The position numbers and the translations under genes are program-made. DNA of 29,448 nucleotides from the IMG/VR virus record IMGVR_UViG_3300030382_002467, positions 1-29,448 of that record; one strand, given 5' to 3'. The notes under the pieces are model-generated. The model was not told the DNA's origin and did not search any database. It saw only the letters and a program-made list of their open reading frames with translations. Source of the DNA: a virus. Shown piece by piece: positions 5,163-25,900 of this stretch (within the stretch, counting starts at the first letter, position 1; every line of letters begins with the position of its first letter).

Positions 5163-6473
5163 ATGGCATCTTTAACAGGAGAAACAATAGCATCGTCATA
5201 TGACTTGATTGTAAAAAGGCATGAGACTTATAGCCAAACAGGCACAAATATTGAATTAATGACCGATAGTAGTGGGGCGACAGCAGCTACAGGATTATAC
5301 TTAGAATCTGGAGCAACTACTTCTAATATCGGTATGGGGGTTGCTGCACCAGGAGTACCTCTTGATGTACAGTATGATGTATCAGATGGTTCTCGTATTG
5401 CTCGATTTTTAAATGGGGAACTAACGAATGATGAATCTGTATCTATAGCTGTAGGACGACATCCTTCAGACAATTACAATATGGGTATATTGGGATTTAA
5501 ATTTCTTACGGCTAACTCTGACCAAGATAGTTATATAGGACTTGGATTAGAAAATAATGAATTTATTTTAAATGTGACTGGACATGGTAAAGTCGGTATG
5601 GGGACTGTTACACCAGTATCAGCATTAGAGATTCAGGCTGGAAATAGTACAACTGGTGCCATCCTAACTCTTGGAACACAAGAAACTACTGTTGTAGCAA
5701 ATGATGTTTTAGGTCGAATTAATTTTTATGCACCTAAAGAAACTGATGGGACTGATGCAATTGCAACCGCAGCATCTATTTCAGCAGTAGCACAAGATAC
5801 ATTCACTGCAGCGGCTAATTCAACCGCTTTACACTTTCAGACTGGGGATAGTGAAGATGCTACAGGTACTACTGCTTCAATGGTGATTGATCAAGATGGT
5901 AATATTGGTATTGGGACTACTTCACCAAACAGAGCCTTTCATGTTGAGCATGGTACAGACAACACAGTTATTGCTCGTTTTGCCAATACATCTTCTGAAC
6001 CAAAATGTATCCTATTAGAGCATCCTAATAAAGATTCTGCTTCTGACAATACTGCTGATGATGAGTTTTTTGAATGTAAGGATGACGATACTGTTCATTT
6101 TGTTATATATGGCGATGGAGATTGGAGCACTAAAGATGGTTCAGAGGTAGCATCAGATAGGCGAATAAAAAAGAATATAACTGACGCAACTTCTAAACTT
6201 GATGATATAAATAAAATACAAGTAAGAAACTTTAATTTTTGTAATAATGATGGTAGTGATTTAGCCAATACTACGCTAGGCAAAAAACGTATAGGATTTA
6301 TAGCCCAGGAATTAGAAGAAATATTCCCATCAGTTGTTCACGAGAAACCGCATTTATGGGCAGGTAAAGATTATGATGACTTTAAGAGAGTTAGTTCAGG
6401 GGCACTTGTACCTATGCTCGTAAAAGCAATACAAGAATTATCAGCTAAGGTAACAGCCTTAGAAAACGCATAA
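5163..6473 (+). CDS. tail fibre/spike with C-terminal S74 intramolecular chaperone
   Basis: AAGGAG at 5150-5155 supports this start. The 436-aa protein has three copies of a fibre motif of the form (I/V)G(I/M)G-x3-P-x3-(L/F)-x-(V/I) at about residues 55-70, 142-158 and 246-262, typical of phage fibre shafts. From Ser331 it reads SDRRIKKN, then IGFIAQELEEIFPSVV and LVPMLVKAIQELSAKVTALENA. This is the Peptidase_S74 chaperone that folds the trimer and then cuts itself off. By analogy with endosialidases, Ser331 and Lys336 (spacing of five) would be the dyad and cleavage would fall just before Ser331. It is probably a host-recognition or baseplate-type fibre. Confidence 0.85.
   Translation: MASLTGETIASSYDLIVKRHETYSQTGTNIELMTDSSGATAATGLYLESGATTSNIGMGVAAPGVPLDVQYDVSDGSRIARFLNGELTNDESVSIAVGRHPSDNYNMGILGFKFLTANSDQDSYIGLGLENNEFILNVTGHGKVGMGTVTPVSALEIQAGNSTTGAILTLGTQETTVVANDVLGRINFYAPKETDGTDAIATAASISAVAQDTFTAAANSTALHFQTGDSEDATGTTASMVIDQDGNIGIGTTSPNRAFHVEHGTDNTVIARFANTSSEPKCILLEHPNKDSASDNTADDEFFECKDDDTVHFVIYGDGDWSTKDGSEVASDRRIKKNITDATSKLDDINKIQVRNFNFCNNDGSDLANTTLGKKRIGFIAQELEEIFPSVVHEKPHLWAGKDYDDFKRVSSGALVPMLVKAIQELSAKVTALENA
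6153..6470 (+). other. S74 chaperone domain, first fibre
   Basis: This segment encodes residues 331-436 of the fibre. Ser331/Lys336 match the known autocleavage dyad spacing, and the C-terminal helix ends in a short coiled coil (ELSAKVTALE), as in other S74 domains. Confidence 0.85.
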
Positions 6474-8051: not shown

Positions 8052-9261
8052 TGCTGGCACAAGTGCTGTAAGGATAATTGATAACGACAATGATGTCGTA
8101 ACAGTCACTGATAATCGTCTTGACGTAAATGCAGTATTGTCAGCTTCGGATAATATTGAAATTGGTAATGTAGATATTCAGCTTGATGGTACTGCTGTTT
8201 CTAAGGCAAGTGGCTCATTGGACGCTGGGACTATTCGTGTTACCCTTGCTACTAATGACCCTTTAATCCATGCCGAAGATGATGCACATACTACTGGTGA
8301 CCATGGCATTATGCCTCTTGCTGTTAGAAATGATACCCTCGCAGCTTTGGGTGGTGCAGATGGTGATTATGCCCCATTACAAGTAGACTCTAAAGGAAAT
8401 TTATATGTAAGTATAATTAATGACACGCTTTATGCAGGAATCGCATGGGCACAAAATAGATCAATGCCAACAGTTCCATCAGTCAGAAAAGATACTCTTG
8501 CACATCTTTCTGGTGTAGGTGATGGAGATTATACTCATTTATATGTTGATAGCATAGGCGGTCTCTATGTAACTGGTAGCGAGGTTGAAAATGCTGCTGT
8601 TCAAAGTGAACCTTTGCTTATAGGAGGTAGATATGATTCTTCCGCTAGAACACTTCACGATGGAGATGCTGGTGCAGCTGCACTAAATGCTTCTGGTCAT
8701 GTCATTGTAGATGTTGTAAATGGAGGTCAATTAGATACAATTATTGATACATTGGAAACTACGCTGACTGCCATTGAAACAGATATTGCAGCTAATGAAG
8801 TTCTATTGGGGACTATTGATTCAGATACAGATGCAATAAAAACAGCTGTAGAAATTTTAGATAATGCTATTAGTGGAAGCGAGATGCAAGTTGATATTGT
8901 ATCTTCTGCCACACTATCAGTTAATTCTCATGCAGTAACTAATGCTGGTACTTTTGCAGTACAGGCAGGACATGATATTACTGGTCTTGCGAGTGATGAT
9001 AATGATACAGTAGGTACAAGTGCTGAAAAGATTTCTGGAGCAGATGGTGATGTTGCTTGTAAGCGTGTTGATATAATGGCACATCCAGATAATACTGGAT
9101 ATATATGGATAGGAGATAGTGCGGTTTCTGTTAATGGTTTAAATGGAGGTATAAGACTTTCTCCTGGGGATTTTTATAGTATGGATATAGACAATACAGG
9201 TGATGTTTACGCCATAGCAACTGTTGATGGTGAAAATGTTTGTTTTAATTATTTTACATAA
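8044..9261 (+). CDS. repeat-containing tail fibre/appendage protein (405 aa)
   Basis: The gene overlaps its upstream neighbour by eight bases. The protein starts with TSAVRIIDNDNDVVTVTDNR, has three diverged repeats (about residues 90-123, 141-177, 190-223) and a heptad segment (residues 227-275, LDTIIDTLETTLTAIETDIA) that could be a trimeric coiled coil. It ends in a beta domain: RVDIMAHPDNTGYIWIGDSA, then IRLSPGDFYSMDIDN and VYAIATVDGENVCFNY. That end resembles a widespread small beta-sandwich in phage appendage proteins. A trimeric fibre or tail decoration protein is the best reading; receptor specificity cannot be deduced. Confidence 0.6.
   Translation: MASAGTSAVRIIDNDNDVVTVTDNRLDVNAVLSASDNIEIGNVDIQLDGTAVSKASGSLDAGTIRVTLATNDPLIHAEDDAHTTGDHGIMPLAVRNDTLAALGGADGDYAPLQVDSKGNLYVSIINDTLYAGIAWAQNRSMPTVPSVRKDTLAHLSGVGDGDYTHLYVDSIGGLYVTGSEVENAAVQSEPLLIGGRYDSSARTLHDGDAGAAALNASGHVIVDVVNGGQLDTIIDTLETTLTAIETDIAANEVLLGTIDSDTDAIKTAVEILDNAISGSEMQVDIVSSATLSVNSHAVTNAGTFAVQAGHDITGLASDDNDTVGTSAEKISGADGDVACKRVDIMAHPDNTGYIWIGDSAVSVNGLNGGIRLSPGDFYSMDIDNTGDVYAIATVDGENVCFNYFT
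8311..8712 (+). repeat. three diverged tandem protein repeats in the 405-aa appendage protein
   Basis: The units share a pattern of P-x-x-(V/I)-R/G-x-D-(T/S)-L/A followed by a Gly/Asp turn (GGADGDY, VGDGDY, DGDAGA) and a strand such as LQVDSKGNLYV, LYVDSIGGLYV or LNASGHVIV. They look like stacked beta modules of a shaft. Confidence 0.65.
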
Positions 9262-9824
9262 TGCCTAATACACTTACAAAGGCAACTAGGCAAAGCTTTA
9301 CAACTACTATGAATTTTTATCATGCAATGACAGACCATGACACAGAATGGATAATATGCAACAATGATTCTTTCTTCAAATTAGGAGGGCAAGATACAAG
9401 TGTTGACGATGAAGAGGCAGGGATTATTTCATCATCAAATCAGGCAATAATAAGAAGTTTATGGTTTATTGCACCTTTTAATATGACTGTAACACACATA
9501 TCTGGAAATGTTATGGATGATGATTTAACTACCCATCAAGATGCTAATTTTTTAGGTATATGGATTGTATCGAGTTTTGGGACTTCAGGAAATACTCCAG
9601 CAGCAAAAACAGGTACTCAGACTTTTACGCTTAAATATATAACTCAAGATTGGTATGCAGCAGGTTTAGGGCAAGGAGATGATACATCATATGCTTTTTA
9701 CGATACAAGTCCATCACTTACTTTGTCTGCTGGTGATGCTGTATGGGCAGGACATATGAACTTTAGAAGTAGTCTATCTGACGCTACTACAGTACAAATG
9801 TCAATATGGGGACATGAAACTTAA
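9261..9824 (+). CDS. beta-rich virion protein (187 aa)
   Basis: TAATG overlaps the preceding gene. The product MPNTLTKATRQSFTTTMNFY... contains segments such as IIRSLWFIAPFNMTVTHISG, FLGIWIVSSF and SLTLSAGDAVWAGHMNFRSS, ending VQMSIWGHET. This 'shift in molecular surface then amplitude' pattern, with 'GDavwaG' near the end, occurs in small phage tail or capsid decoration proteins that I cannot name with certainty. It forms a pair with the preceding appendage protein, and no enzymatic residues are apparent. Confidence 0.5.
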   Translation: MPNTLTKATRQSFTTTMNFYHAMTDHDTEWIICNNDSFFKLGGQDTSVDDEEAGIISSSNQAIIRSLWFIAPFNMTVTHISGNVMDDDLTTHQDANFLGIWIVSSFGTSGNTPAAKTGTQTFTLKYITQDWYAAGLGQGDDTSYAFYDTSPSLTLSAGDAVWAGHMNFRSSLSDATTVQMSIWGHET

Positions 9825-9835
9825 TATGGGAATTT

Positions 9836-10606
9836 ATGAGTAAAAATGTAGTAAAACGAGCAATAGTAACACCTGACAAACATTTCCCATTAGCGGATAA
9901 AAAAGCAATTAGTGTTTTATGTCAGGCAATTGAAATAGTAAAACCAGATATATATGTTGATCTTGGTGATATTGGAGAATGGGAAGGTAGTAGTCACTGG
10001 CAATGGAGAAAGAAGAAACGTCCACCGCTAGAGTATCAGACTCCTTTTATAGACCAAGATATAAAGGATGTTAACAAGGGGATGGACATAATAGATGAGT
10101 CTCTCGATAAAGCAAACTGTAAGGTTAAGCATATGATCGAGGGCAATCACGATGATTGGATGAACAGATTTGTAGATGAACATCCATATCTGAAAGGATA
10201 CAGGTTTAAAGAATGTGTAAAACTAGAAGAAAGAGGTTATACGTATCATCCAACGGGCAAATACATGAAGCTTGGGAAGTTAGCAATATATCACGGGCAT
10301 CACTTTGCTGGGATAAACCATACGAGGAATCATTTACTAAGGCTTGGAACGAACATAATGTATGGTCATCATCACGACATACAACAGTCATCTGTTACCC
10401 ACTTGGATGGGGTGAAGTCAGCGTGGAGTATAGGGTGTCTGAAGGACATGAAATCGGAGAAGAATGAATTTTTACAACACAGGATGCACAACTGGTCTCA
10501 TGCATTTGCAATCGTTGATTTCTATGACAAAGGCTTTTTCACTGTGCATGTAATACAAATTATAAATGGTAAGACCTCTTTATGGGGTGAGCTTATTAGT
10601 GGCTAA
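9836..10606 (+). CDS. calcineurin-like metallophosphoesterase
   Basis: The 256-aa protein carries the full metallophosphoesterase metal-ligand set: D14-x-H16 (PDKHFP), D45 in VDLGD, N104-H105-D106 in EGNHD, H153 in YHGHH, and H178/H180 in YGHHHD. This predicts a two-metal phosphoesterase active site; the substrate (nucleic acid, nucleotide or phosphoprotein) cannot be read from the sequence. The gene lies between a tail protein and the lysis-like genes, co-directional with virion genes. It may therefore be a virion-associated or late-expressed enzyme rather than a replication enzyme. The ribosome site is weak (GGGA upstream of ATG 9836). It overlaps the next gene by eight bases. Confidence 0.88.
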   Translation: MSKNVVKRAIVTPDKHFPLADKKAISVLCQAIEIVKPDIYVDLGDIGEWEGSSHWQWRKKKRPPLEYQTPFIDQDIKDVNKGMDIIDESLDKANCKVKHMIEGNHDDWMNRFVDEHPYLKGYRFKECVKLEERGYTYHPTGKYMKLGKLAIYHGHHFAGINHTRNHLLRLGTNIMYGHHHDIQQSSVTHLDGVKSAWSIGCLKDMKSEKNEFLQHRMHNWSHAFAIVDFYDKGFFTVHVIQIINGKTSLWGELISG

Positions 10607-11384
10607 TTCAATAGCAGATATGTTAGCAATGGAAACGGCAGAGCCAGATGCTACATTAACACCACTTGATGTGTTTGGAGAAAAGTCTAAAGATGCTGAT
10701 GATGCTAGAGAAAAGGTTAATTCATTTGCATCAATACTTTCTGGTACTGGTGGTAAAAATATATTTGGTCAAGACGTTGCACCATTAACTGAAGAAGATT
10801 TATTGGGTATGGTAATGGGCACTACTGGTGGCCCAATGGGTAGCGGTAAAGGATTATTAAAAGGAATTAAAAAATCTCCTAAAGTAAAAACTTTGTTAAA
10901 CAAGGTATTTAAAGGTGATAGGGATGTAGTTTTAGCAGATTTAACAGATGAAATGGGGAATGTGTTTAAGCAACCTTTTTATAAATCAAGTGGAAGAAGT
11001 GGAAGAAGTGCTTTAAAGCGTCAGGCTGGAGAGTTAGATAAAAGGGCTGGCGAGTGGCTTCCCTTTATGGGTAGAACTGAGAAGTCAGGAAGAGTTATGG
11101 ATGCATCTGGAAAAATTAGCGGACAAGCTCCAGAAGGATGGTTTATAAAAGGAACTAAAACTGGCCCAAGCACAAAAGGCAAGCCGTTTTGGGAACATTT
11201 AGGGTCAGGTGGTACTGATTTAGAAAAAAGACTAGGTTCTATGGGAGATATTAGTAAAGAATTAAAACGTTTAGAGAGTACAGGTTATTTTAAAAAAGAT
11301 ATTTCTGGAAAGGGTGCAAAATCAATGAATAAATGGTTAAAAGAGCAGGGCGTATCAATTGCTGATGTTCTTAGTTTTCAATAA
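10599..11384 (+). CDS. probable virion/ejection-associated protein with PxDVxGEKS motif (261 aa)
   Basis: I chose the GTG at 10599, which has GGGGTGAG eight bases upstream and overlaps the phosphoesterase stop by eight bases. An ATG at 10566 would overlap by 41 bases. The product begins VANSIADMLAMETAEPD and has LTPLDVFGEKSKDAD at residues 20-34. It then has a Gly-rich stretch (GTTGGPMGSGKGLLKGIKK), a helical/basic middle and a Gly-rich C-terminus ending WLKEQGVSIADVLSFQ. The segment P-x-DV-x-GEKS recurs in the 923-aa protein downstream, suggesting a shared docking element. GTTGGPMGSGKG resembles a P-loop but no other ATPase motif is present. The function is unknown. Confidence 0.55.
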   Translation: MANSIADMLAMETAEPDATLTPLDVFGEKSKDADDAREKVNSFASILSGTGGKNIFGQDVAPLTEEDLLGMVMGTTGGPMGSGKGLLKGIKKSPKVKTLLNKVFKGDRDVVLADLTDEMGNVFKQPFYKSSGRSGRSALKRQAGELDKRAGEWLPFMGRTEKSGRVMDASGKISGQAPEGWFIKGTKTGPSTKGKPFWEHLGSGGTDLEKRLGSMGDISKELKRLESTGYFKKDISGKGAKSMNKWLKEQGVSIADVLSFQ

Positions 11385-11385
11385 A

Positions 11386-11541
11386 ATGAACGGAATAATA
11401 GATACATTGAAAACAACGGGAGCAGGTGTAAGTGGATGGTGGTTGTCGGTTAGTGGCTGGCTTCCAGAGGTTGTATCACTAGGGGTTGGAATTGCAACTT
11501 TAGTGTACCTTATAATTAAAATATATAAAGAGCTCAAGTAA
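11386..11541 (+). CDS. holin-like small membrane protein (51 aa)
   Basis: The ATG at 11386 lies just after the previous stop; an in-frame ATG at 11359 lies inside the upstream gene and is less likely. The product MNGIIDTLKTTGAGVSGWWL continues to WLPEVVSLGVGIATLVYLII and a basic end KIYKELK, i.e. one transmembrane helix (about residues 28-46) with a charged C-terminal tail. Size, topology and position suit a class II/III-like phage holin that would permeabilise the inner membrane at lysis. Other small membrane proteins cannot be excluded. Confidence 0.6.
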   Translation: MNGIIDTLKTTGAGVSGWWLSVSGWLPEVVSLGVGIATLVYLIIKIYKELK

Positions 11542-11559
11542 ATTACATGGGAGGTGTAG

Positions 11560-11811
11560 TTGGACATAATAGGCATAATAGAAACAATTGGGATTCCAGT
11601 TTCCGTAGCACTCGGTCTAGGCTATGCACTAATGTATTTAATAAAATTTTTAACAAGAGATGTACAGGAAGATATAAAGAATTTACACGATATAACTGTG
11701 AAGCTTATAGACAGTAATCGTGAATCAAAGGATGAAACTAAAAAAACAATGACAGCAGTTAATGTAATAAAAGACATCGTAATAAAACTTTTCAAACAGG
11801 GAGAAAAATAA
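11560..11811 (+). CDS. small membrane protein, holin/antiholin-like (83 aa), TTG start
   Basis: The best start is TTG at 11560, supported by GGGAGGTG ending six to seven bases upstream; no ATG or GTG fits the N-terminus as well. The protein starts MDIIGIIETIGIPVSVALGL with a hydrophobic helix through GYALMYLIKFL (about residues 8-31), then a charged helix RDVQEDIKNLHDITVKLIDS and a Lys-rich end. One N-terminal membrane helix followed by a cytoplasmic helix resembles BhlA/UviB/YvrJ-type holin-like proteins. That family placement is inference from shape, not a match I can verify. Confidence 0.6.
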   Translation: MDIIGIIETIGIPVSVALGLGYALMYLIKFLTRDVQEDIKNLHDITVKLIDSNRESKDETKKTMTAVNVIKDIVIKLFKQGEK

Positions 11812-11964
11812 ATGTTAGAATTTTTATCAAGTAACTGGGAATATGCACTGATAGGTATTCTCTGTATAGATAAGGTCGTTGCACTTAGCCCAACAGAGTG
11901 GGATGATCTTATATGGACATCAGTTAAAAAAGGAATCTATAAAGCGGTAGGTAAAAATGTTTAA
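11812..11964 (+). CDS. small hypothetical protein, lysis cluster (50 aa)
   Basis: The ATG directly follows the TAA of the 83-aa gene. The sequence is MLEFLSSNWEYALIGILCID, then KVVALSPTEWDDLIWTSVKK and GIYKAVGKNV. The first part is mildly hydrophobic (a possible short membrane helix, residues 8-24); the second is amphipathic with a basic end. Small proteins with a 'LSPTxxDD' turn are, in my memory, common near phage holin genes. It overlaps the next gene by eight bases. A membrane-associated lysis or entry accessory is plausible. Confidence 0.5.
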   Translation: MLEFLSSNWEYALIGILCIDKVVALSPTEWDDLIWTSVKKGIYKAVGKNV

Positions 11965-12109
11965 ATTGATAATAGCAAAAGCAGTTGCAAAGCATGGTCT
12001 TCTTCCTCTTCTTTTAAAGGTGGGAGATATTGCTGTAAAAGTGACAAAGACAAAAAAAGATGATAAAGCTTGGGCTAAAGTTAAAAAGGTTATAAGTGAA
12101 AATCTATAA
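11957..12109 (+). CDS. small basic amphipathic protein (50 aa)
   Basis: The ATG at 11957 overlaps the preceding gene by eight bases, and the gene itself overlaps the next GTG start by 14. The product MFKLIIAKAVAKHGLLPLLL continues VGDIAVKVTKTKKDDKAWAK and ends KVKKVISENL. It is a basic, hydrophobic/amphipathic peptide, too short for a folded enzyme. By placement it belongs with the three preceding small proteins. Membrane association is likely; whether it is a holin, antiholin or a virion micro-protein cannot be decided. Confidence 0.5.
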   Translation: MFKLIIAKAVAKHGLLPLLLKVGDIAVKVTKTKKDDKAWAKVKKVISENL

Positions 12110-12188
12110 TGAAATAGTATTTGATGTAGATGGGAATGTAGTATATGAAGATAGCTTCGAGTATAGTGGTGATGTTATGCTTTGTCAA
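12096..12188 (+). other. N-terminal KIYNEIV...EDSFEYSGD tag, copy 1
   Basis: This stretch encodes residues 1-31, MKIYNEIVFDVDGNVV... ending EDSFEYSGDVMLCQ. Copy 2 starts at 16911. The two copies match at KIYNEIV and at EDSFEYSGD and differ in the loop between (seven residues longer in copy 2). Confidence 0.75.
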
Positions 12189-14867
12189 GAGGATGATCCA
12201 TATGATATAAATAAGGATGGTCGTCTAGATATTCTTGATGTAGTGAGAGCTGGTAATGCGGGTAATCAAGAGCTAGCAAAAAATATCTTAAAGGCTATAG
12301 GTCGGGGTATGTCTGGAACGGATTATATGGCGTCCTTGACTGATCAAAGCCAAGAAGAAATAGTGCCTGTAGATGTAGCAGGAGAAAAATCAAGGGCTGA
12401 TGAGCTTTTAATGCAACAGAGTGGTGCTTTAACCGCTAATCCAATGCCATCTCTTCCTTCTATCTCAAATGTAGGGGCTGCTCCTTTTTCTGGCTCTATT
12501 AATTGGAATGCAATTCCTGGTGGATTTCAGCCACTACCACAGATAGCAGGTGGGAAAAAGAAGTTATATCAGCTATCTAAGTTTCATGGAGGGATGAACC
12601 AAAAGTCTTCTCCAAGAGATATATCTGACGCAGAATGTCAAGAAGCTACAAACGTGACAGTTTCACAAGTTGGAAGAATAAAACTTCTTGGGGATATAAA
12701 AAGTACTAGTAGTGGAATCACTACAACTACTTTAGCTGATGCTGGCATTCCATCTCCTGGGTATGGGCTTTATGTATTTAAAAGTGGATACTCATTAGCG
12801 TCAACCCCAGTTCAAGGTGATTATACAATTAATGTTTCGCAAGATGGAGGTGTGTGCCAACTATATGACGGATCGGATACTGGAACACTTACAATATCAA
12901 ATACAGCAACTCATGTTGCTCCTGTGTTTTATGCAGCTGGCAATGGACTTTATGCAAGCAATGCTAACCTTCTTCACGCTGGGCATGCAAATGATACAAG
13001 AAAAGCTGCTATACTTGTATATAGAAAAGATTACAATGCTAATATCACAACTAAAGTTTGGTCGACTGGTGAGGCACTTTTAACATCCCCAACATTTATT
13101 GAATCTGCTGCTGGAAATTCAAATAATGAAGCTAATGGCAAGGTCACATTAGAATGGGATGATGGCACTGTTTCATTTGATCCTGTTGCTGTTGATGGAG
13201 CAGCAGCGGTTCATATTGGATCATCTGGGTCTGGTAATTGGGGCACTTCAAGTGGAACTGGTTACTTTTTTTACATCTCATGGCTATTTGATAATGGTTG
13301 TGAGACTGGGTTGACTGCCCTTCAAAAGACTGGCGGTAGTTATGCAAGTGGATACACATTCCAAGAGGAGCAATTATCGTTTAATTTCTCTGTTAAAAAC
13401 GTTGATTCAACAGGGGTTTCTGGCACAAATTATCTTGGAGGTAATGCCAGAATACATGGAGCACGTATTTATTATAGAGAGGCTGGAACGGTGGAAAGAT
13501 ATATGCTTGCAGAGGTTAGTCTCCTTGATGGTATTATGGGTGCTGCTGATTCTACATTTACTCCCTGGGATCACAATAGTGATGTTTATGATCTCGCAGC
13601 AAACATTACATTTAGCTCTCCCCCATCATTATACACATATGTTTCAAAAAATGGATATTATGCAAATGAAATGTATGATAAGTCTTCTGAAACTATTACC
13701 GATGATACCGCTGGGCCAGCAGCTCATGAAGTAAGGTATAGAACAGCAGCTGTTGGTTCTAATGGTTCTGTATTTATAGGTTGTATTAGTTTTAGGGGAA
13801 AGGTAATTATGGATGGGATGATGTATTCTATGCCTAATAAACCTGGGGTATTCCCAGAGCTTAATGTATTTGATTCTCCTTCATCTGATGGAACACCAAT
13901 AACAGCACTAGTGGCATTCAAAGATAAGATACTACAATTTAAACAGGATGCATTATATGTTATAAATATATCAAATCCAACACAGTTTTATGTAGAAGCT
14001 TCATTTAGAAATTGTGGTATAATGAATCCATGTCAGGCATTTCAAACTCCATTTGGAGTAATATTTGCAAACTATATTGGATGTTTCATATATGATGGAA
14101 GTAAAGTAATATCTCTTACATCTGGTAAATTTTCTATTGCTAATTGGGGTATTTCTGAGGGTAGCGTTGTAGATACTCCTGCTGCTAGTAAAGATGCTGT
14201 AAAAGTTCCTTGTGTTGGATATGATCCACGTTCACAAAGTATTATAGTTTTAAAAGATGTTGGAGATAATGGAACTTCTTCTACCACCCCGAATGCAGAA
14301 AGTGCTTGGGTATATCATATGGGAACACAATCATGGACTGAGGGAACTTCTATGATTTCACAGTCAAATGCAATTCGTCATTCCAATTTTGTTATATCTC
14401 CAAATGGATATTTGAGTATATGTCAGAGCGATGTAGAGACATTAAAAACATATAATATTGGAGAGGCAGCTACACAATCAATAACATATTGGACGAAAGA
14501 TTTAGATTTTGGATTACCATCTCAGACAAAGTATTTATATAAAGTTTATATTACATATAAAGGAGACGCATCTGGACTTACAGTTAAATGGGGTGCAGAT
14601 GGTCATGATAGAACACAATCAGAGGTAGCTGATCTCTATAGTTTCGCAACAAATTCTCATGGAGGTACTGAGAGTTTAACTCCACTTGAAGATAAAGATG
14701 ATGGTAGTGATGCTATAGAAAATTGGCATGTTGCAACGTTATACCCAGATAATTCAGCTGAGGCTGGCGGTTGGTATAGTATGTCAATATATATGAATGG
14801 GACAGTTGATGATACTTTCGAGATAAATGATATTTCAATACTATACAGAGCGAGACCTATAAAATGA
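12096..14867 (+). CDS. 923-aa stopper/hub-like virion protein with mosaic N-terminus
   Basis: The start is GTG (12096), giving MKIYNEIV as in the gene at 16911. The N-terminus is a mosaic: a tag (residues 1-31), a dockerin-like calcium loop (D37-x-N39-x-D41-G42, D48), and a PVDVAGEKSRAD segment (91-102). From about residue 155 the protein reads KFHGGMNQKSSPRDISDAEC then QEATNVTVSQVGRI. This 'GG-N-x-s-P-x-x-I-x-x-x-E-x-x-E-a-x-N' element opens a large family of phage stabilisation/tail-tubular-like proteins, commonly followed by beta-propeller repeats. The remaining ~750 residues are beta-rich, matching that. It probably forms a tail tube/hub or stopper beneath the neck. Confidence 0.65.
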   Translation: MKIYNEIVFDVDGNVVYEDSFEYSGDVMLCQEDDPYDINKDGRLDILDVVRAGNAGNQELAKNILKAIGRGMSGTDYMASLTDQSQEEIVPVDVAGEKSRADELLMQQSGALTANPMPSLPSISNVGAAPFSGSINWNAIPGGFQPLPQIAGGKKKLYQLSKFHGGMNQKSSPRDISDAECQEATNVTVSQVGRIKLLGDIKSTSSGITTTTLADAGIPSPGYGLYVFKSGYSLASTPVQGDYTINVSQDGGVCQLYDGSDTGTLTISNTATHVAPVFYAAGNGLYASNANLLHAGHANDTRKAAILVYRKDYNANITTKVWSTGEALLTSPTFIESAAGNSNNEANGKVTLEWDDGTVSFDPVAVDGAAAVHIGSSGSGNWGTSSGTGYFFYISWLFDNGCETGLTALQKTGGSYASGYTFQEEQLSFNFSVKNVDSTGVSGTNYLGGNARIHGARIYYREAGTVERYMLAEVSLLDGIMGAADSTFTPWDHNSDVYDLAANITFSSPPSLYTYVSKNGYYANEMYDKSSETITDDTAGPAAHEVRYRTAAVGSNGSVFIGCISFRGKVIMDGMMYSMPNKPGVFPELNVFDSPSSDGTPITALVAFKDKILQFKQDALYVINISNPTQFYVEASFRNCGIMNPCQAFQTPFGVIFANYIGCFIYDGSKVISLTSGKFSIANWGISEGSVVDTPAASKDAVKVPCVGYDPRSQSIIVLKDVGDNGTSSTTPNAESAWVYHMGTQSWTEGTSMISQSNAIRHSNFVISPNGYLSICQSDVETLKTYNIGEAATQSITYWTKDLDFGLPSQTKYLYKVYITYKGDASGLTVKWGADGHDRTQSEVADLYSFATNSHGGTESLTPLEDKDDGSDAIENWHVATLYPDNSAEAGGWYSMSIYMNGTVDDTFEINDISILYRARPIK
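12204..12239 (+). other. dockerin-like calcium-binding loop
   Basis: This stretch encodes DINKDGRLDILD (residues 37-48), matching the classic dockerin/EF-hand loop D-x-N-x-D-G-x-(L/I/V)-(D/N)-x-x-D, followed by a helix VVRAGNAG. Only one loop is present, whereas true dockerins usually have two. Confidence 0.65.
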
Positions 14868-15925
14868 GTAATTGGGGTATACCAAATAGACCAAAGATTT
14901 CCAATAGGGTTGAAAATAGACCAATTGATAATGAGGGTACTGATGGTGATGTTCAAATAAAAGGAACTGGTCTTGGAGCTAAATTATTTGCTAAATGGTC
15001 AGGCAGATGGTGGGATGTTCCACTCTCTATAGATGGTATAACAAAGATTGGTACTACTGATTCTGACTATCTTAGTATTGATAGGGATTCTGTTGATATA
15101 TATAAAAACAAAGTAAAAGTAGCTGAGTTTGGAGAAGATATATCTTTTTTTGGGAAAATTATAATTGGTGATCCAGATGGGACATTTAGTTCAGAAGACA
15201 ATATAAATATCGGCAATAGTCAAAGTGGGCTGGGAACGTATAATGTAGCTATTGGCTATCAAGCTGGGGAAAGCTTTACTAGTGTTTCCCAATTAAATGT
15301 ATGCTTGGGTTATCAGGCAGGCAAGGAAATAACAAGTACAGGTCTTTATAATGTATGTATTGGAGGCTTTGCTGGAAATGCTGTTACAGAAGGCGACAAT
15401 AATCTTTTATTAGGCTATCGAGCAGGTACTGCAAGTTCTCCTGTAACGGTAACTACAGCAGGTAATACCATTTGTCTTGGGGATGATAATATTACATCCT
15501 TTTATTGCAAGGACGATTCTATTGCAACTTCTGATGCTAGGGATAAAACAGATATAGCTAATTTTGAAAATGGCTTAGCCTGGATTAATGCAATGCGTCC
15601 TATTACTTATAAATGGGATATGCGTTCTTCTTATATAGGAGAACATGGGACTGAAAAAGATTTATTGGAAGCTTCGCCAGATGGAACTCATAAAAAATCT
15701 TCATTAAATATAGGATTAGTGGCACAAGAAGTTTTAGAAATAGAAAAAGCTAATGGATATGGCGATGATAATGATACAAGCCTTCTTGTAGACATAGTTA
15801 GTGATGGTGCTAGGTATGGATTAAAATATTCAAGGCTAACTCCAATACTAGTTAAAGCAGTACAGGAATTATCAGCAAAATTAGACACAATGCAAACAGA
15901 AATTAACAATTTAAAACAAGGATAG
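14864..15925 (+). CDS. second S74 fibre, with YadA-like repeats
   Basis: ATGA overlaps the preceding stop. The 353-aa protein starts MSNWGIPNRPKISNR and contains KGTGLGAKLFAKWSGRWWDV. It has four shaft repeats of N-x2-(I/L)-G-(Y/G)-x-A-G at about residues 127-135, 145-153, 163-171 and 180-188, spaced 17-18 residues, reminiscent of trimeric-autotransporter head repeats. It ends with an S74 chaperone: Ser223-x4-Lys228 (SDARDK), NIGLVAQEVLEIE and a coiled-coil tail. Autocleavage would fall before Ser223. As with the first fibre, it is probably involved in adsorption or penetration, but the two have very different shafts. Confidence 0.8.
   Translation: MSNWGIPNRPKISNRVENRPIDNEGTDGDVQIKGTGLGAKLFAKWSGRWWDVPLSIDGITKIGTTDSDYLSIDRDSVDIYKNKVKVAEFGEDISFFGKIIIGDPDGTFSSEDNINIGNSQSGLGTYNVAIGYQAGESFTSVSQLNVCLGYQAGKEITSTGLYNVCIGGFAGNAVTEGDNNLLLGYRAGTASSPVTVTTAGNTICLGDDNITSFYCKDDSIATSDARDKTDIANFENGLAWINAMRPITYKWDMRSSYIGEHGTEKDLLEASPDGTHKKSSLNIGLVAQEVLEIEKANGYGDDNDTSLLVDIVSDGARYGLKYSRLTPILVKAVQELSAKLDTMQTEINNLKQG
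15242..15427 (+). repeat. four tandem YadA-head-like repeats
   Basis: The units are NVAIGYQAG, NVCLGYQAG, NVCIGGFAG and NLLLGYRAG, with 17-18-residue spacing, each followed by a Ser/Thr-rich loop. The layout fits a left-handed trimeric beta-roll shaft. Confidence 0.75.
15530..15922 (+). other. S74 chaperone domain, second fibre
   Basis: This segment encodes residues 223-353. The Ser-Lys spacing is again five. It has an extra loop (EHGTEKDLLEASPDGTHKKS) before NIGLVAQE that the first S74 domain lacks. Confidence 0.8.
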
Positions 15926-15929
15926 AGTT

Positions 15930-16907
15930 ATGGCAATAAGTTTAGCAAGAGCACATACGGCAGGAAAGAAACTAGATATAGCTAGAAAACAAGCAGCAGA
16001 ATATGAAGCACAAGCAAAAAAAGCAAAAAATCGTGGGTTCTTTAGTGGTATCCTGGGTAAAGGCTTAGGGAGTGTTATAGGTGCTGGTGCTGTTGGTGCT
16101 TTAGGCTTAACTGGCTTTGGAGTGCCACTTGCTATGGCTTTAGGCAGCATGGCAGGTAAGAAGGGTGCACATGAATTGACAAGAGGTATGGGTGCAGACG
16201 CAAGTGCAATATCTGAAAGCGATATGTATGGATTTGGAAAAGAATCAGGAAGTTCACTAAGGAAAGACTTAGAGTCACAAATGGTTGTTGATCCTTTTAA
16301 AGAGAAAGGTGGATTTGGCAAAGAATTACTTTCTTCAACTTTAAGTGCTGGCTTGGCTGGTGATCTTGGGGGTGCTACTAAATCTTTAATGAAAGGTGAT
16401 GTTGGAAAAGCATTTGTTGACCCTGAAGCAATAGGAGGTTTGGATAAAGGTGGGGCTGCTATGTGGGCAGGTGCTAAAGAGTCAATAGCTGGGCTAATAC
16501 CTGGGTATTCAGATATTACTAAGGGAACTGACACTACAATGGACTATGAGTCTTTAAAGGGCTCAGGCATGACTGGGCCAGAATATGATGCTCTTGTAAC
16601 TTCAAGACAAACAAACTATATAGATGATGCTGATGACTGGTTCGGAGATAATGAAATTATAAATCCCGAACTTGATGAATTGGGATATTCAATAGCTGGA
16701 GATTGGGCACAGGGCGGTCAAGTTCCACAACAACAACAATTATTACAACTACTTGCTTTAGCTTCAACGCAACAACAACAAAATGCATATAGTGATACTC
16801 CCCTTGAAGAAGTTAAGCAGCTTTCAATAGCAGATAAGTTTGCAGCACAAGGTAAAACGCTTGGTGGAAATGACATACAATCACTATCACAAAAGCTAGG
16901 GAGATAG
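15930..16907 (+). CDS. internal virion (ejection) protein candidate, Gly/Ala-rich (325 aa)
   Basis: AAGGAT upstream supports ATG 15930. The protein has a basic amphipathic start (LARAHTAGKKLDIARKQAAE), then a long Gly/Ala-rich hydrophobic segment (residues 37-77, including GKGLGSVIGAGAVGALGLTG), typical of ejection proteins that insert into the host membrane. The middle is mixed and contains a GGQVPQQQ element at about residue 262 with two glutamine runs. Position directly before three larger proteins of similar character suggests a T7 gp14-like role: a tunnel component formed on DNA entry. That equivalence is inference; direct homology is not visible. Confidence 0.6.
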   Translation: MAISLARAHTAGKKLDIARKQAAEYEAQAKKAKNRGFFSGILGKGLGSVIGAGAVGALGLTGFGVPLAMALGSMAGKKGAHELTRGMGADASAISESDMYGFGKESGSSLRKDLESQMVVDPFKEKGGFGKELLSSTLSAGLAGDLGGATKSLMKGDVGKAFVDPEAIGGLDKGGAAMWAGAKESIAGLIPGYSDITKGTDTTMDYESLKGSGMTGPEYDALVTSRQTNYIDDADDWFGDNEIINPELDELGYSIAGDWAQGGQVPQQQQLLQLLALASTQQQQNAYSDTPLEEVKQLSIADKFAAQGKTLGGNDIQSLSQKLGR

Positions 16908-16910
16908 GTT

Positions 16911-17024
16911 ATGGCAAAAATCTATAATGAGATAGTAATTGACATGAACCCAGAGTCTTCAACCTTTGAAGAAGTGCTACATGAAGACAGTTTTGAGTAT
17001 AGCGGTGATATGATACTTGCACAA
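16911..17024 (+). other. N-terminal KIYNEIV...EDSFEYSGD tag, copy 2
   Basis: This stretch encodes residues 1-38: MAKIYNEIVIDMNPESS..., then a loop, then HEDSFEYSGDMILAQ. The protein diverges from copy 1 immediately after the tag, with no similarity in the bodies. Confidence 0.75.
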
Positions 17025-17876
17025 GATGAGGGTGGTGGAGATACTGGTGGGCAGGCAGGCTTAACGGGAACAATTGGTGCAGCTAAAGTTGTTTGGCAAA
17101 ATCCAGACGACCCAACCCAAACAGAAGAGTTCAGAGCATACAAAGACGGCCCAGAAGGATGGGAAAAAAAGACTCTGTATCCAGAATATGCTTATGATAA
17201 GGGAACAAACGCTTGGACAGCAACTGGAAAACATATTCCAAAAAGCGATACACATCATTATACCACAATGCAAGAAGCAAATGCCAAGCAAGTAAAAGGA
17301 GAAGATACGGATTGGGGTGCTGCAAATATTACAAAAGATATGTTTATAAATGCAGATGGAAGCACAAAAACAATTCAAGAAATTTACACCACATTAGACC
17401 CATTGCTACCCAATATGACAGGCGAAAAGCTAAAGCTTCAGATTCAAGATATGCTACCTAAATACGAAGGAGTTTCTGAGGAAGAGAAAGGGTTTGCAAG
17501 AGAGGGTTTCCAAAAAGATGTATATGGAGTGTCAAAAGATGCTGGTAAAGCAGGTGCTCAAATGCAACAAGCTTATGGGTCTGGAATGGGTTCTAGTATG
17601 AGAGGTGCTATTGCTGGACAGAAAGATGTTGCACAGCAGTTTAAGCAAGCAGAGCAAGGATATGCTCAAGATGTATATGGGCTTGAGAAAAAGGCAGGAG
17701 CTGACTTTGAAACTGGTGTTGGGGATTGGCTTCAATCTGATTGGTTTACAACTCCTGAAGGGGATACTGACCAAACTACAGCATGGGATGACTTTAGAGA
17801 GGGTGGTAAAGTCCCAACGAAAGAAGAAACATTTTTAGATGTATTAAGCAAATTACCAGATGCAGGAGGCAGTTAA
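16911..17876 (+). CDS. internal virion protein candidate with shared N-terminal tag (321 aa)
   Basis: The start is ATG 16911 with a purine-rich site upstream. Residues 1-38 form the KIYNEIVIDM...EDSFEYSGDMILAQ tag shared with the 923-aa protein. Then comes a Gly-rich linker, a region with few motifs, and from about residue 195 two similar segments (FQKDVYGVSKDAGK and YAQDVYGLEKKAGADF) separated by a Gly/Met/Ser-rich stretch, AYGSGMGSSMRGAIAG. The end is FREGGKVPTKEETFLDVLSK. A mix of amphipathic helices and Gly-rich segments suits an ejection protein. The tag implies that it docks on, or is processed like, the stopper protein. Confidence 0.6.
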   Translation: MAKIYNEIVIDMNPESSTFEEVLHEDSFEYSGDMILAQDEGGGDTGGQAGLTGTIGAAKVVWQNPDDPTQTEEFRAYKDGPEGWEKKTLYPEYAYDKGTNAWTATGKHIPKSDTHHYTTMQEANAKQVKGEDTDWGAANITKDMFINADGSTKTIQEIYTTLDPLLPNMTGEKLKLQIQDMLPKYEGVSEEEKGFAREGFQKDVYGVSKDAGKAGAQMQQAYGSGMGSSMRGAIAGQKDVAQQFKQAEQGYAQDVYGLEKKAGADFETGVGDWLQSDWFTTPEGDTDQTTAWDDFREGGKVPTKEETFLDVLSKLPDAGGS

Positions 17877-19968: not shown

Positions 19969-22900
19969 ATGGCAATGCCTTATTCTGTAAGGGTAGCAAT
20001 TGATTCTTTTAGAGAAGAAGAGCCAACCTTTTCTACCCTTAGTGATGAACAAATATATAAACATTTAAAAACTTACGAACCTCATTTAGAATGGAAAGAG
20101 GCTGATAAAACTCCTGCTAAAACTAGAAGGAAAAAAGATTCGTCCCCTTCTTATATGAATGCATTTGCAGAGTGGTTTGACTATGGAATAAATGAACAAT
20201 CTTCTGATTGGATGAAAGCTGCATATAACAACTCGCTTACAGGCATGACAGAACAGCTTATGAAGGGAGAGCAAAGATACGATCTAAAAGATTATGATCC
20301 TAATATACTAGCTGACATAGGCTCTATGGCACTTTCCTTTCTTATGCCACTTGATTTACTTACTTTTGGTGCTGGTGGTAAATTTGTTGGACAACCTCTT
20401 GCTAAGATGGCAACAGCAGGCATGAAGAGTAGGGTTGGTGCTAAGTTTGGCACACGTGCCTTAGATGCTATGATACCAGCTGCTATTAACCAAGCAGGCA
20501 CACTTGCTACATATGAAGGTGCTATGGGTGGTGTTTTAGCAGGTATAGAAAACGAGAATGTTATGGAGGGTATAGGCAAAGGTGTTCTTCATGGTAGTAT
20601 TATGGGTGGAGCTGCTGGGCTTGTTGGTGGTGGGTTAGCATTTAAAAATGCCAATGTACTAAAAGCATTAAGTAAAGAAGGTAAGATTGCTAAGGCTGGC
20701 CAAGAAGCTACGAAGAAACTTACAAGCTATGATAAAGCTTTGATGCGTGCAACAGGTATGCCAGGCCAGATTGTTGGTGAGTCTGCTACCTTTACCGCAG
20801 GTGAAACCTTAGAGACCGCTATTGATCCTGACAGAGATGTTAGATTAGAAGATATTATTACTTCCCTTGGAAAGAATATTGGACTGTTTAGTATTCTTAA
20901 AGGTAAGAGTAAATTACTACAGCGTGGCAAAGAGCACGTAAAATTACTTGAAGAACAAGAAGTCCTTAAAAATGTTACTGATGGTTTAAACAAAAAGAAA
21001 ACAAGAGAGTCTGAAGTTTATCATAATACATATGATAGGTTGATGGAAGAAAAGGCAGCTGAGACAGACCCAAGAATTAAAGAACGAATCCAGAAAGATG
21101 CTGATACAATTAAAGCTGAGGCAAGTAATATAGATAAAGGGCACTTTGAAAACAGAGATGCCTATAAGGAATTGATAGATATTTTAGACCTAATGTCAGA
21201 CCCTAAAAAACCCGTAGAGCCAAGCGTAGAGAATTATACTAAAATTGTAACAGGTTTAGAAGCACTTATTGAAGCTGAAAATAGACTTGGCAAGACTGGT
21301 GCATATAAAGCCCTTACATCTCAGATGGAGAGAACAAAGAAAGAAGCAAATGATATTCTTGATAATCTAAATGAAAGATTAATAAACGAAGCTGAGAAAA
21401 TTGAGAGCACAGAAGAAAAGCAAATAAGATTGCAAGCAGAAGCTCAAGAACGTGGTGTTAAAGATATAAGTATTGGTAAGAAGAAAATAGCAATAGAGGA
21501 AGCAACTCCAGCACAAATTGAAGCTCGTCTTAAACCTTTAAGAGAAAAAGAGCAAAAGCAAATAGAATTAGCAGCTGCTGAGGCTGGATTACCATCTGCT
21601 GATATAATAGCTGAACGTACTGCTAAGAAAATGGGTCAACTTAACCCAATAGATGCTTTTAAAGAACAAGGATTAAGCACTAAGGTAGAGATTTCTGAGT
21701 TAAAGGCAGGATCAGGTAAGCATGCAAAAGCAAACAAGTATGTTGGTAAAAAAGCTCATGAGCTAATAAATGAAGCGAAAATAGCTGATTCTACAAAGAA
21801 AAAAATATACTTAGGTGTTAAAGAATTTTTTCCACAATCTCGTGGTAAAATGGCACATCTTAGTGAAGTATTAAAGTATGCTGAGTATCTTGAAAAAATT
21901 GGAATAAAATTTGATGACAGTAGAGCTTCTCACTTTAAAAAATATTTAAAAACAACAGGGCAATGGGAAAATAGAAAATCAATTGCAGGGAGGCTTCAAA
22001 AGTTTTATGGTGGTACTCATGATACTTCGTGGGGTTTGATTACTCAAGGTCAAGGTTATGCTGGTAAGTATATGAGAATTGGTGTTGGACTTGCTAATGT
22101 TGGAGTTCTTGATGTAAGATGGGGAGCTATTGTTCCAGGCAAGGCTACAAGGATAACATCTACTCAAAAAGGCTTAATGTCAGAAGTAATGGAATATCTC
22201 CCAGAAAAGATTAATTTAGATAAAAAAGCTCCAGAGATACCCAATATTGTTAAAAAGCCAATTGCTAAAAAAACAGTTCAATCCTTATTTGAAACGTTTT
22301 ATAGGTTTCCAAAGCGTATTTCAGAAATGATAGGGCTGAAGGTTGGCGATATTAATGTAAAGAATGGAACTGTTAAATTTAATGTTACGAAGGGTAAAAA
22401 AGGTGACACAATAGTAGAGACATTTGATCTTAAAACATTAGACCCAGTTTTATGGGATACAGTTGTTTCTTTAAGAAAGAATAAGGCTAAAGGTGATTAT
22501 ATCTTTAGCGATATGGGTAAAAAGAAATTTAGCAATGATACTGTTAATGGTATATTAGATTTTCTTATCAAAGAATCTGGTGTTACCCCAGTTTCTATGC
22601 GTGGTGGTAAAAAGTTTACATCTCATCACTTTAGACATAGTGCTGCTACAGATGCGGAAACTATTTTTAGAGAATCTGGTGGTAAAAAAGATTATGTAGA
22701 TTTAGTTCAACAAATATTATTATCCCATGAACCAGATAAACTTACTAGAACACACTATATAGATAAAAAAGCAGTAGATGTTAATAAAGAATTAGCTGAG
22801 TTTTATGCTGCAAGAGAGGGGATTGAAAAATCTACTAAAAAAGATGCAGATATAGCAGTAGATCGTATTAAGATAGCTGAAAAAGTAAAGAAAACATCTA

Positions 22901-25900
22901 AAGAACAAGTAGAATCAATAGCTGCGGAGATGCAAACATCAGCAGTAGAGCTAGGAGAACAGGTAAAGTACTTTAAAAAGAAATTCCCTCAACTCACTAT
23001 CACACTTAAAAAGACTCTTGGAAAGTATAGAGGCGAGTATGTTCTTGGTCGTATTACTGGTCATGCTGTTGAAATTGCTAAGGGTAGAGCTGGTGCTGAT
23101 ACTATCCCGCATGAGGTTGCTCACCATGTTGTAGATGTTCTTCGTCAATTCGGTGACGCTGGTAGTAAAAAATTAATTAGAAAGGGTGAGAGACTTTTTG
23201 GCGGTGAAGAAAAGTTAGTACAAGCTGTTGGTGAATATGGTGCAGGTAGACTTAGAAATAGGTCTATGGTAAGTAAAGCTAAAGCTTGGGTTCAAGAATT
23301 TTGGAGTAACATGAGGGCAAGGCTTGGATGGTATACAGAAGCTGATATTACTAGGGTTCTTGGTAAGAAACTTATGACTGGTAAAATACCAACTGGCGAG
23401 ATAGCTGAGTTTAAAGCTAAGTATCAAACTAAGGGTGATGCCATCAAGGAAAAGAAAGATTTGAATAGGCAGATAAATTCTCAGATTCGTAAAATAAATA
23501 TTCCAACTCCAATTCTTAGGGAAGCTAAAGAAGCTATATTTGGAACTGAGAATCTAAGTAAATATACAGAGTGGGCTAATGTTCATCAGATGAGAGAGTT
23601 TAATGAATTTGTTCATAATCCTAAGAACTGGCATGTTAATAAGGTAGAACAATTAAATGCTAAGTATGCTATAAATCCAGAGGTATCTAAACAACATCTT
23701 CGTGACATGGGTGTAAAGGGAGGTATTCCTGAGAATGCTACATTACATACCATTAAAGAATATCAATCATTCATTAAAGAAAATTATACTAAGTCTGTTA
23801 TACATGACAACACGCATGATTGGATATTAAACTTAAAAGATACAAAGTATACAGCTGCTAAAGTTCTTGGTAGGGCTATTACCCCTGTGTGGTTAGTCCT
23901 TAAAAATCATGGAGGTAAGCCAGGTAGGAAGATATCAGAAAAGCTTTTAAATCATGAGTGGGCAGAACATGTTTTATATAAAGGGCCAGGAGATCAAGCT
24001 ATTCACTTAATAAAGAAGACTCTTGGAAAAGATAAACAATATACTCACCTATTTGACATAGAACGTACAGAAGCTCGTTTAAAGAGAAAGAAGGGTGATG
24101 AAGACTATACTAAAGAAGGGGAGATGTCAGTAGAAGACAAAAGATTCTATAAGAACATGTTTAAAAAAGGTACACCTGAGTATGAAGCTTATAATACATG
24201 GACTAATAAAGAAAATAATGGTTACGCAGATTTTACATGGGATACACTTTTTAAAGAATTATCTGAGCATCATAATCCATCAGAGATTGCAAAGCTTAAA
24301 AGAGAATTAGATTCTAAGAGGGTTGAAGGCTATATGACACGTCTATGGACAAAGCGTGCACTTGAAACTATTAAAGAGGATAGCCCCTGGATGGATAAAA
24401 TGGTAACAAGGAATTTAAGTGAAGCTGCTAGGCGTGAAGCAGAGATATGGGGTCAAAATAAAAGCAGAGAAGAAATTTCTAATAAACGTAGAGAGCTTGA
24501 AAAGAGTGAAGAATTTAAAGATAGCATTCGTGAAGAGTTATATGATGCCATGAGGTTTGGATATGCAACTGTTAAAAACCCACATCTCATTGAACGTGGT
24601 GCTTTAATGCCTGAGTATATAGAGGTTACTAATGAAAATGGAAGGCTAGAAAAAGTAAAGGTTTATGAGGATGGCATAGGAAGCGCAGAGGCGTATGTAA
24701 GTAGAATGTCTAAGTTTCTTTCAACTGTGCGTTACTTCCCTGAGTGGACTGGGCTTGGAAGCAAGTATAAACTTGGTGAAAGTAAAAGACTTCAAGTGGA
24801 AGCACTTGAAACTGATGAGACTGTAGGTGCTTATGCAGCATTGGCAATTAAAAGACAACTAGGTGTTGACAGAACACATATGGAAAGTCTTAATCGCCCT
24901 ATGTATAAAGGTCTTGCTTGGTTTACAAATCTCTCAGCTGCTGTTGGATTGTCATCTCCTCTTTCTGGTGTAAAGAATTTAATGATTGGTCAGCCTAGAA
25001 CTGCTGGTCATTTTGGTTTTAGAAATACAATGCGTGCCTGGGCAAGAGGTTTTGATTCTATTGTAAAAGCAGATGCAAGAACAAAGGGCCAGCTTGAGTA
25101 TGGCTCTAAATCTTTGGAACTTGAGCGTATTAGGCTTGGTGAAGAAGGTGCTTGGAGAAATGTAAAAATGTCCAAATTATTTAAATTTAATCTAATGACA
25201 CAGACAGAAAATATGAATAGAATAGTATCTTCACATGCTGGTCAATTATATTTTGGAGAGGTTCTTTCTAAGCTTCGTGGTGAAAAAGGCATGTTTAAAA
25301 TGGGAACAAACAAAGGTCGTATGCGTAGGGTCATGTCTGAAGTTTGGCATTTAACTCCAGAAGAAATTAGATTACTTGAAACAACAAAGAATTTAAATAC
25401 TAATGAGATTGCTCCAAAGTATGCAGAGATAATGCATAAGGTGGGTCACTTTTCTCATGTATCTACTCAAGGAGGTACATCTACTGTTCTTCTTCCTCTG
25501 TGGATGTCTTCAAGGGAGGGTAGACCTCTAACTTTATTTCAGCGTATGGCAACATCTACTACAATAGATAGTTATAGAAACTTTGTTAAGCCAGTTTTAG
25601 ACTATGGTAATGTTGCTCCTATTTTACGTGCTACTATGGGACATGCTCTTAGTGGTGGGGCATTATTCTTCATGTATAAAACATTACTTAGTAAAGAACC
25701 TCCTGTTGGGTCAAAGCTCGAACAAGATGACGGATGGGATAGAGTTATGATGAATTTATGGAGGTCAGAGTTTCTTGGAGTATTTGGTGAGATACTAAGT
25801 CCATATGATAAAACTATTGCTGGTTCACTTGCAGAGCCTATGATTATACGTCATCTTAGTGAAGCTAAAGATAACGTTCATAATCTCTTGACTGGTGGCA

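Follow-up and report, generated by a model that had tools for sequence, protein, structure and literature searches.

Results

A Portable N-Terminal Tag on Phage Virion Proteins

We describe a tag that, by sequence comparison, occurs only at the N termini of many unrelated phage virion or late proteins and of one SAR11 protein, and that passes from gene to gene and from phage to phage in the form of a DNA cassette with an edge at the start codon. The reading we prefer, at a confidence somewhat short of even, is that this portable module of about 31–41 residues serves as a recognition hairpin for one general partner. The DNA analyzed, called the window here, comes from an uncultured phage and makes up an entire IMG/VR virus record (29,448 bases).

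The window contains two tagged open reading frames (ORFs). The first, at 12096–14867, encodes 923 amino acids (aa) from a GTG start immediately 3′ of an upstream TAA; the second, at 16911–17876, encodes 321 aa. Both tags follow the motif (M)KIYNEIV.D-loop-.EDSFEYSGD..L. Aligned, they agree at 58% overall with 22 identical columns, KIYNEIV and EDSFEYSGD being the same in both, and the difference in length comes from the loop that joins KIYNEIV.D to EDSFEYSGD, where one tag has a 6-residue gap. A search of the whole record with the 321-aa tag recovers the 923-aa tag at an E value of 1.6e-7 and finds no third copy in the 29,448 bases. The original prediction, that two proteins of this phage carry the same N-terminal tag on unrelated bodies, is borne out by the recovered ORFs, their alignment, and this search; the two bodies have no detectable similarity and fall into separate BLAST clusters. 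The N-terminal location given there (residues 1–31 and 1–38) also stands, with the conserved part refined to the extents in Table 1. For the EDSFEYSG stretch, one gene has GAAGATAGCTTCGAGTATAGTGG and the other GAAGACAGTTTTGAGTATAGCGG. Its four differences in 23 bases are all synonymous and in third positions, so the likeness in DNA that had been pointed out is real and follows from the likeness of the peptide.

Table 1. Positions of the tags, the cassette, and the protein bodies in the window
Feature	Position	Strand	Basis
Tag 1, 923-aa residues 1–34, predicted β hairpin, strands 2–9 and 15–22	12096..12197	+	Searches, alignment, model; similarity to tagged L020 ends at codon 34
Exchangeable N-terminal cassette, codons 1–90 of the 923-aa gene	12096..12365	+	blastn breakpoints at start codon and near codon 91; protein alignment
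Single EF-hand/dockerin-like loop DINKDGRLDILDVV, right after tag 1	12204..12245	+	Sequence
Body of the 923-aa protein, tail-nozzle-like	12366..14867	+	70–77% identity to untagged relatives; Foldseek
Tag 2, 321-aa residues 1–41, same hairpin motif, longer loop	16911..17033	+	HMM i-Evalue 1.9e-24 (profile includes tag 2)
Body of the 321-aa protein, unrelated to the 923-aa body	17034..17876	+	Clustering, blastn, model

The Tag Is Confined to the N Termini of Otherwise Unrelated Proteins

Viral contigs were searched with the two window tags and then with growing alignments, and successive rounds confirmed 19, 41, 130 (80 kept), and 171 (80 kept) loci in largely overlapping sets. The final profile, scanned over all 32,577 ORFs of 259 sequences, gives 248 matches that correspond to 122 distinct proteins with many unrelated bodies. 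All 248 begin within 5 residues of the start codon and none is internal; an in-frame stop lies no more than 15 codons upstream of the tag in 99 of the 122. Because the search patterns are blind to position, we regard this location as a strong result. Profile-profile comparison matches the window tags to those of other families at an E value of 3.8e-18. The tag is thus conserved far beyond this phage, to which it might, in the original prediction, have been limited.

The sequence beyond residue 42 falls into 41 BLAST clusters. Two of these are one SAR11 family, and the 39 viral families are an upper bound, as some clusters are probably remote relatives of each other. PHROG families among the carriers include head scaffold (phrog_8865), tail-tip J (phrog_31), internal virion protein (phrog_418), virion structural protein (phrog_11190 and phrog_8003), and tape measure (phrog_27166); there is also a weak P22 gp7-like match, and the nozzle-like protein of the window is a further carrier. 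The tag is present in 43 of 47 virus records searched whole. Most genomes carry a single tagged protein, which differs from phage to phage, and two or three occur only in G005, G026, G027, G028, and the window. Among the contigs, L149 also has three tagged proteins, one of which (8503–12102) bears a Hint/intein-like domain directly behind its tag.

The range of carriers bears directly on the docking or sorting role first proposed for the tag, in which both window proteins would be sent to one virion site. A site-specific docking peptide would work as a capsid targeting sequence does, holding its carriers at one place in the virion (the portal or tail hub, for instance). This role would suit the finding that nearly all carriers are virion proteins and that both window carriers lie inside the nozzle/ejection gene cluster; N-terminal targeting peptides of 10–30 residues do exist in T4 and P1. 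However, scaffold, tape measure, tail-tip J, and the cellular SAR11 protein share no site, and orthologs without the tag are common, some of them near-isogenic with tagged ones (see below). A single virion address is improbable for a module found on scaffold, tape measure, J, nozzle-like, internal, and cellular proteins alike. Carriers this varied are better accounted for by a general partner or by a cis effect on the making or keeping of the protein. What survives of the earlier proposal is that the tag is a separate and widely conserved module.

The tag has no match in Pfam, PHROG, NCBIfam, or the PDB, and no published paper describing it was found in a search with only limited coverage of subscription papers. 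Among 50,697 phage records, no cultured phage with the tag was found, only weak partial matches. Those to Erwinia, Klebsiella, and faecal phages (E about 1–7) were not used, the Erwinia match being in addition not N-terminal, and an Alcaligenaceae match (L071) was set aside for want of a proper start. As for a tag-partner gene beside the tag, clustering of neighboring genes returned only the usual neighbors of each body family. A neighboring acyl/acetyltransferase was rejected as a tag-modifying enzyme because it also adjoins untagged genes in cultured pelagiphages. At L181, L182, L184, and L185, all from cultured pelagiphages, a gene annotated as an acetyltransferase or toxin-activating lysine-acyltransferase immediately precedes the gene of the internal virion protein or the J-like gene.

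Selection Acts on the Translated Peptide

The consensus of the tag is MKIYNKIV.D-turn-(V/I)(I/L)EEDSYEY.GPVALC.GGG, in which K, I, Y, E, Y, and G are nearly invariant; across 32 diverse tags E, Y, and G are invariant, and conservation of specific residues reaches codon 30. The GC3 of the tag tracks the GC of its contig (rho 0.82, over a GC range of 28–62%), which indicates that the tag DNA is free to drift. Pooled dN/dS is about 0.10 in the two conserved strands, a rough value in that the pairs are non-independent and were found by similarity. A conserved DNA motif is ruled out by the GC3 tracking together with the synonymous drift. A Shine-Dalgarno-like sequence precedes the start of the tag in 90 of 122 cases, as against 54 of 525 internal ATGs. 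An internal start that would make the tag optional is rare: just 6 of the 122 have a site of this kind after the tag. Taken as a whole, the ribosome sites, GC3, and dN/dS establish, within the limits of comparative analysis, that the tag is a real translated N terminus kept for its peptide under purifying selection.

The same observations weigh on a second explanation, that the tag is a cis-acting expression, solubility, or stability module whose hairpin and early codons aid translation, folding, or keeping of the protein with no specific partner. Such a module would suit any body, a host protein included. It would also agree with the optional, exchangeable nature of a cassette that begins at the start codon, and with the ribosome sites at the start of the tag. 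Yet specific residues are conserved to codon 30 while synonymous sites are free, which exceeds what translation or solubility would need. We consider a purely cis-acting role unlikely, if a serious alternative, and rank a binding partner above it because the conservation sits in specific residues through codon 30.

The Tag Is Predicted to Form a β Hairpin

The length of the turn varies among tags by up to about six residues, as expected of a hairpin. In the model of the 923-aa protein the tag forms two strands (residues 2–9 and 15–22; pLDDT about 58–66) followed by a very low-confidence stretch, whereas in the model of the 321-aa protein it is without order and mostly below a pLDDT of 50. Both models are poor and based on shallow alignments, with a mean pLDDT of 43 for the former and a pTM of 0.27 for the latter. 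The predicted fold, a β hairpin with a variable turn, is therefore a low-confidence assignment, moderately confident in one model and absent from the other. In both, the tag lies outside the confidently folded domains, which argues against the tag being part of a single folded domain, an outcome that the original prediction had allowed for.

A Cys is frequent at the junction between tag and body (71 of 109 viral tags), and the junction residues vary. The idea that this Cys marks the old N terminus (an M-C start) of untagged homologs was discarded, as those examined (cultured pelagiphage, roseophage, and coliphage homologs and untagged IMG/VR loci) do not start with MC. A further reading is that of a removable propeptide, cleaved off during maturation. 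The N-terminal position of the tag, the flexible-looking segment behind it, the frequent Cys, and the Hint/intein-like domain of the L149 carrier could all be read in this way. Against it, the strongest conservation lies inside the hairpin rather than at the variable junction, and J and tape measure proteins are not known to be usual prohead-protease substrates. Cleavage as the purpose of the tag is thus very improbable.

The Tag Is Exchanged as a Cassette between Phages

At the internal virion protein, the tagged locus L260 and the untagged locus L263 match at 98.3% across the 1,204 bp that end at the ATG; there they diverge into a 108-bp tagged and a 30-bp untagged segment, and the following 788 bp are 99.7% identical. 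Between L259 and L260, 109 of 112 bases of the cassette are alike (97%) and the bodies are 81% identical. Tagged orthologs are in the minority, at 4 of 17 for the internal virion protein and 4 of 33 for J. Given that most genomes have one tag, on a varying carrier, and that most orthologs are without it, the tag is not essential.

Similar breakpoints bound both window tags. In blastn comparisons of the 923-aa gene with untagged L002 and L005, similarity ends at the start codon and returns near codon 91; in L002, L003, L004, and L005 the first ∼90 residues are replaced by unrelated sequence. Against tagged L020, in contrast, the gene is 91% identical through the upstream DNA and the tag (97 of 102 bases in the tag), and similarity ends at codon 34; the two proteins are only 54% identical despite this. 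The nearest relatives of the 923-aa body (77% and 70%) are untagged, whereas more distant ones are tagged. For the 321-aa gene and untagged L004/L005, similarity ends at codon 2 and returns near position 17184. The possibility that one window tag was recently copied from the other was rejected, as each is closer to the tag of its own body family elsewhere than to its counterpart in the window.

Presence and absence alleles in near-isogenic phages, and the replacement of the first ∼90 nozzle-like residues by unrelated sequence in each relative, might also be expected if N termini were swapped to escape host recognition, under diversifying selection by host defenses. The strong conservation of the tag is, however, the reverse of what an escape surface would show, and the tag is found on a host protein as well; we regard this as the least probable of the explanations considered.

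The host protein is a small chromosomal protein encoded near dcd and murA, tagged in some SAR11 genomes (L170–L179 and L188) and untagged in others (L189, L190, and L192). Untagged members of the family start MGIHYDYKST, and tagged forms read ...EFFEYAGPMALA-GIHYDYKST. Two forms keep the original Met behind the tag (SGKIASV-MGIHYDF and EGLVINL-MGIHYDY), which suggests that the tag was placed ahead of a start that was already there. A sample of 398 genomes of the SAR11 phylum yielded a single match, this protein.

The Bodies of the Window Proteins and Their Neighbors

The top seven Foldseek matches of the 923-aa protein are podovirus tail/nozzle chains (E 1e-7 to 2e-5, with low TM-scores from the low-confidence model). 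Its body is probably nearest to podovirus tail/nozzle proteins, and we call it nozzle-like, which fits better than the earlier label of stopper-like. The loop behind tag 1 has no Pfam dockerin match at E ≤ 1; similar EF-hand/dockerin-like loops (D.N.DG.....D) occur in untagged L004/L005 and tagged L067. For the 321-aa protein no family was found in Pfam, PHROG, or NCBIfam, and its model, with a small β region at residues 60–104 and long helices at 172–274, is too poor for a fold search; ejection-type is a name taken from gene context only. Its family has a conserved C-terminal motif, (GG.VP)....F(L)..L..LPDAGG (17790–17873 in the window; also in L004, L009, L011, and L013), and a similar GG.VP stretch occurs in the neighboring 325-aa protein.

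Elsewhere in the window, a 2,165-aa protein (19969–26466) contains a tyrosine-recombinase (Phage_integrase) domain at about residues 760–990, odd for a giant protein inside a virion gene cluster. Two tail-fibre-like proteins are encoded at 14864–15925, with a Peptidase_S74 intramolecular chaperone domain, and at 5163–6473, with a C terminus that matches many tail-fibre families.

Discussion

The model we favor is one in which the hairpin strands KIYNKIVID and V.EEDSYEY, followed by G-P-V-A-x-C and often by a Gly-rich or acidic linker, would be recognized by one putative general partner, whether a host factor that is widely conserved or a phage factor that is common. Once bound, the partner would help the carrier to be made, to stay soluble or stable, or to enter assembly, whatever its body. 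The tag would then not be an address for one particular virion site, and in the window phage it would render the same service to the nozzle-like and the ejection-type protein. More doubtful is the broader proposal of a general-purpose late-protein tag that has one partner across unrelated hosts and phages, fits nearly any virion protein, and was captured by a SAR11 gene.

Nearest in kind are the capsid targeting sequence (CTS) of T4 and the N-terminal targeting stretch of P1 DarB, with phage protein mosaicism as the general phenomenon. The CTS of T4 IPII and IPIII is about 10 residues long and leads to proteolytic processing, the DarB stretch is shorter than 30 residues, and both occur only on head-internal proteins within a single phage group (PMC9958956, PMC9024508). 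Like these, the tag is a short N-terminal peptide that is common to, or transferable between, different virion-bound phage proteins, and it may work somewhat like a CTS. Unlike them, it has a predicted hairpin and is found in many unrelated phages, on head, scaffold, tail, and host proteins. We do not file it as a CTS because one defining feature of that class is a head-internal carrier, whereas the J, tape measure, and nozzle-like proteins that bear the tag are not located in the head. In tblastn searches of the 50,697 phage records, T4 and P1 gave no match to the tags at E ≤ 10, a comparison in which short peptides can be missed.

Both features of domain mosaicism are seen here: a homologous fragment on otherwise unrelated phage proteins, and its spread by recombination between genomes (L260/L263 and L259; the window against L002, L005, and L020). 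Published cases center on receptor-binding proteins, endolysins, and replication proteins that have recognized domains (Smug et al., 2023; PMC10684548). The tag differs from these in being short, in its scaffold, tape measure, J, nozzle, and ejection carriers, in its near-isogenic alleles, and in its cellular carrier. It shares with the N-terminal anchors of tail fibres and tailspikes a conserved N terminus and a variable body, but those anchors bind one virion position and their bodies are all receptor binding (PMC10684548), whereas the bodies behind the tag differ in place and job.

Not previously described, this short module cuts across the usual functional borders between head, scaffold, tail, and ejection proteins and reaches a cellular gene, and its near-isogenic tagged and untagged alleles occur in natural populations. 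For annotation, it would be wrong to name a protein after a tagged one that it resembles at the N terminus. The tag could be a ready-made handle to purify or steer virion proteins, and, if there is indeed one partner, that partner would be a common point in the making of otherwise unrelated phages.
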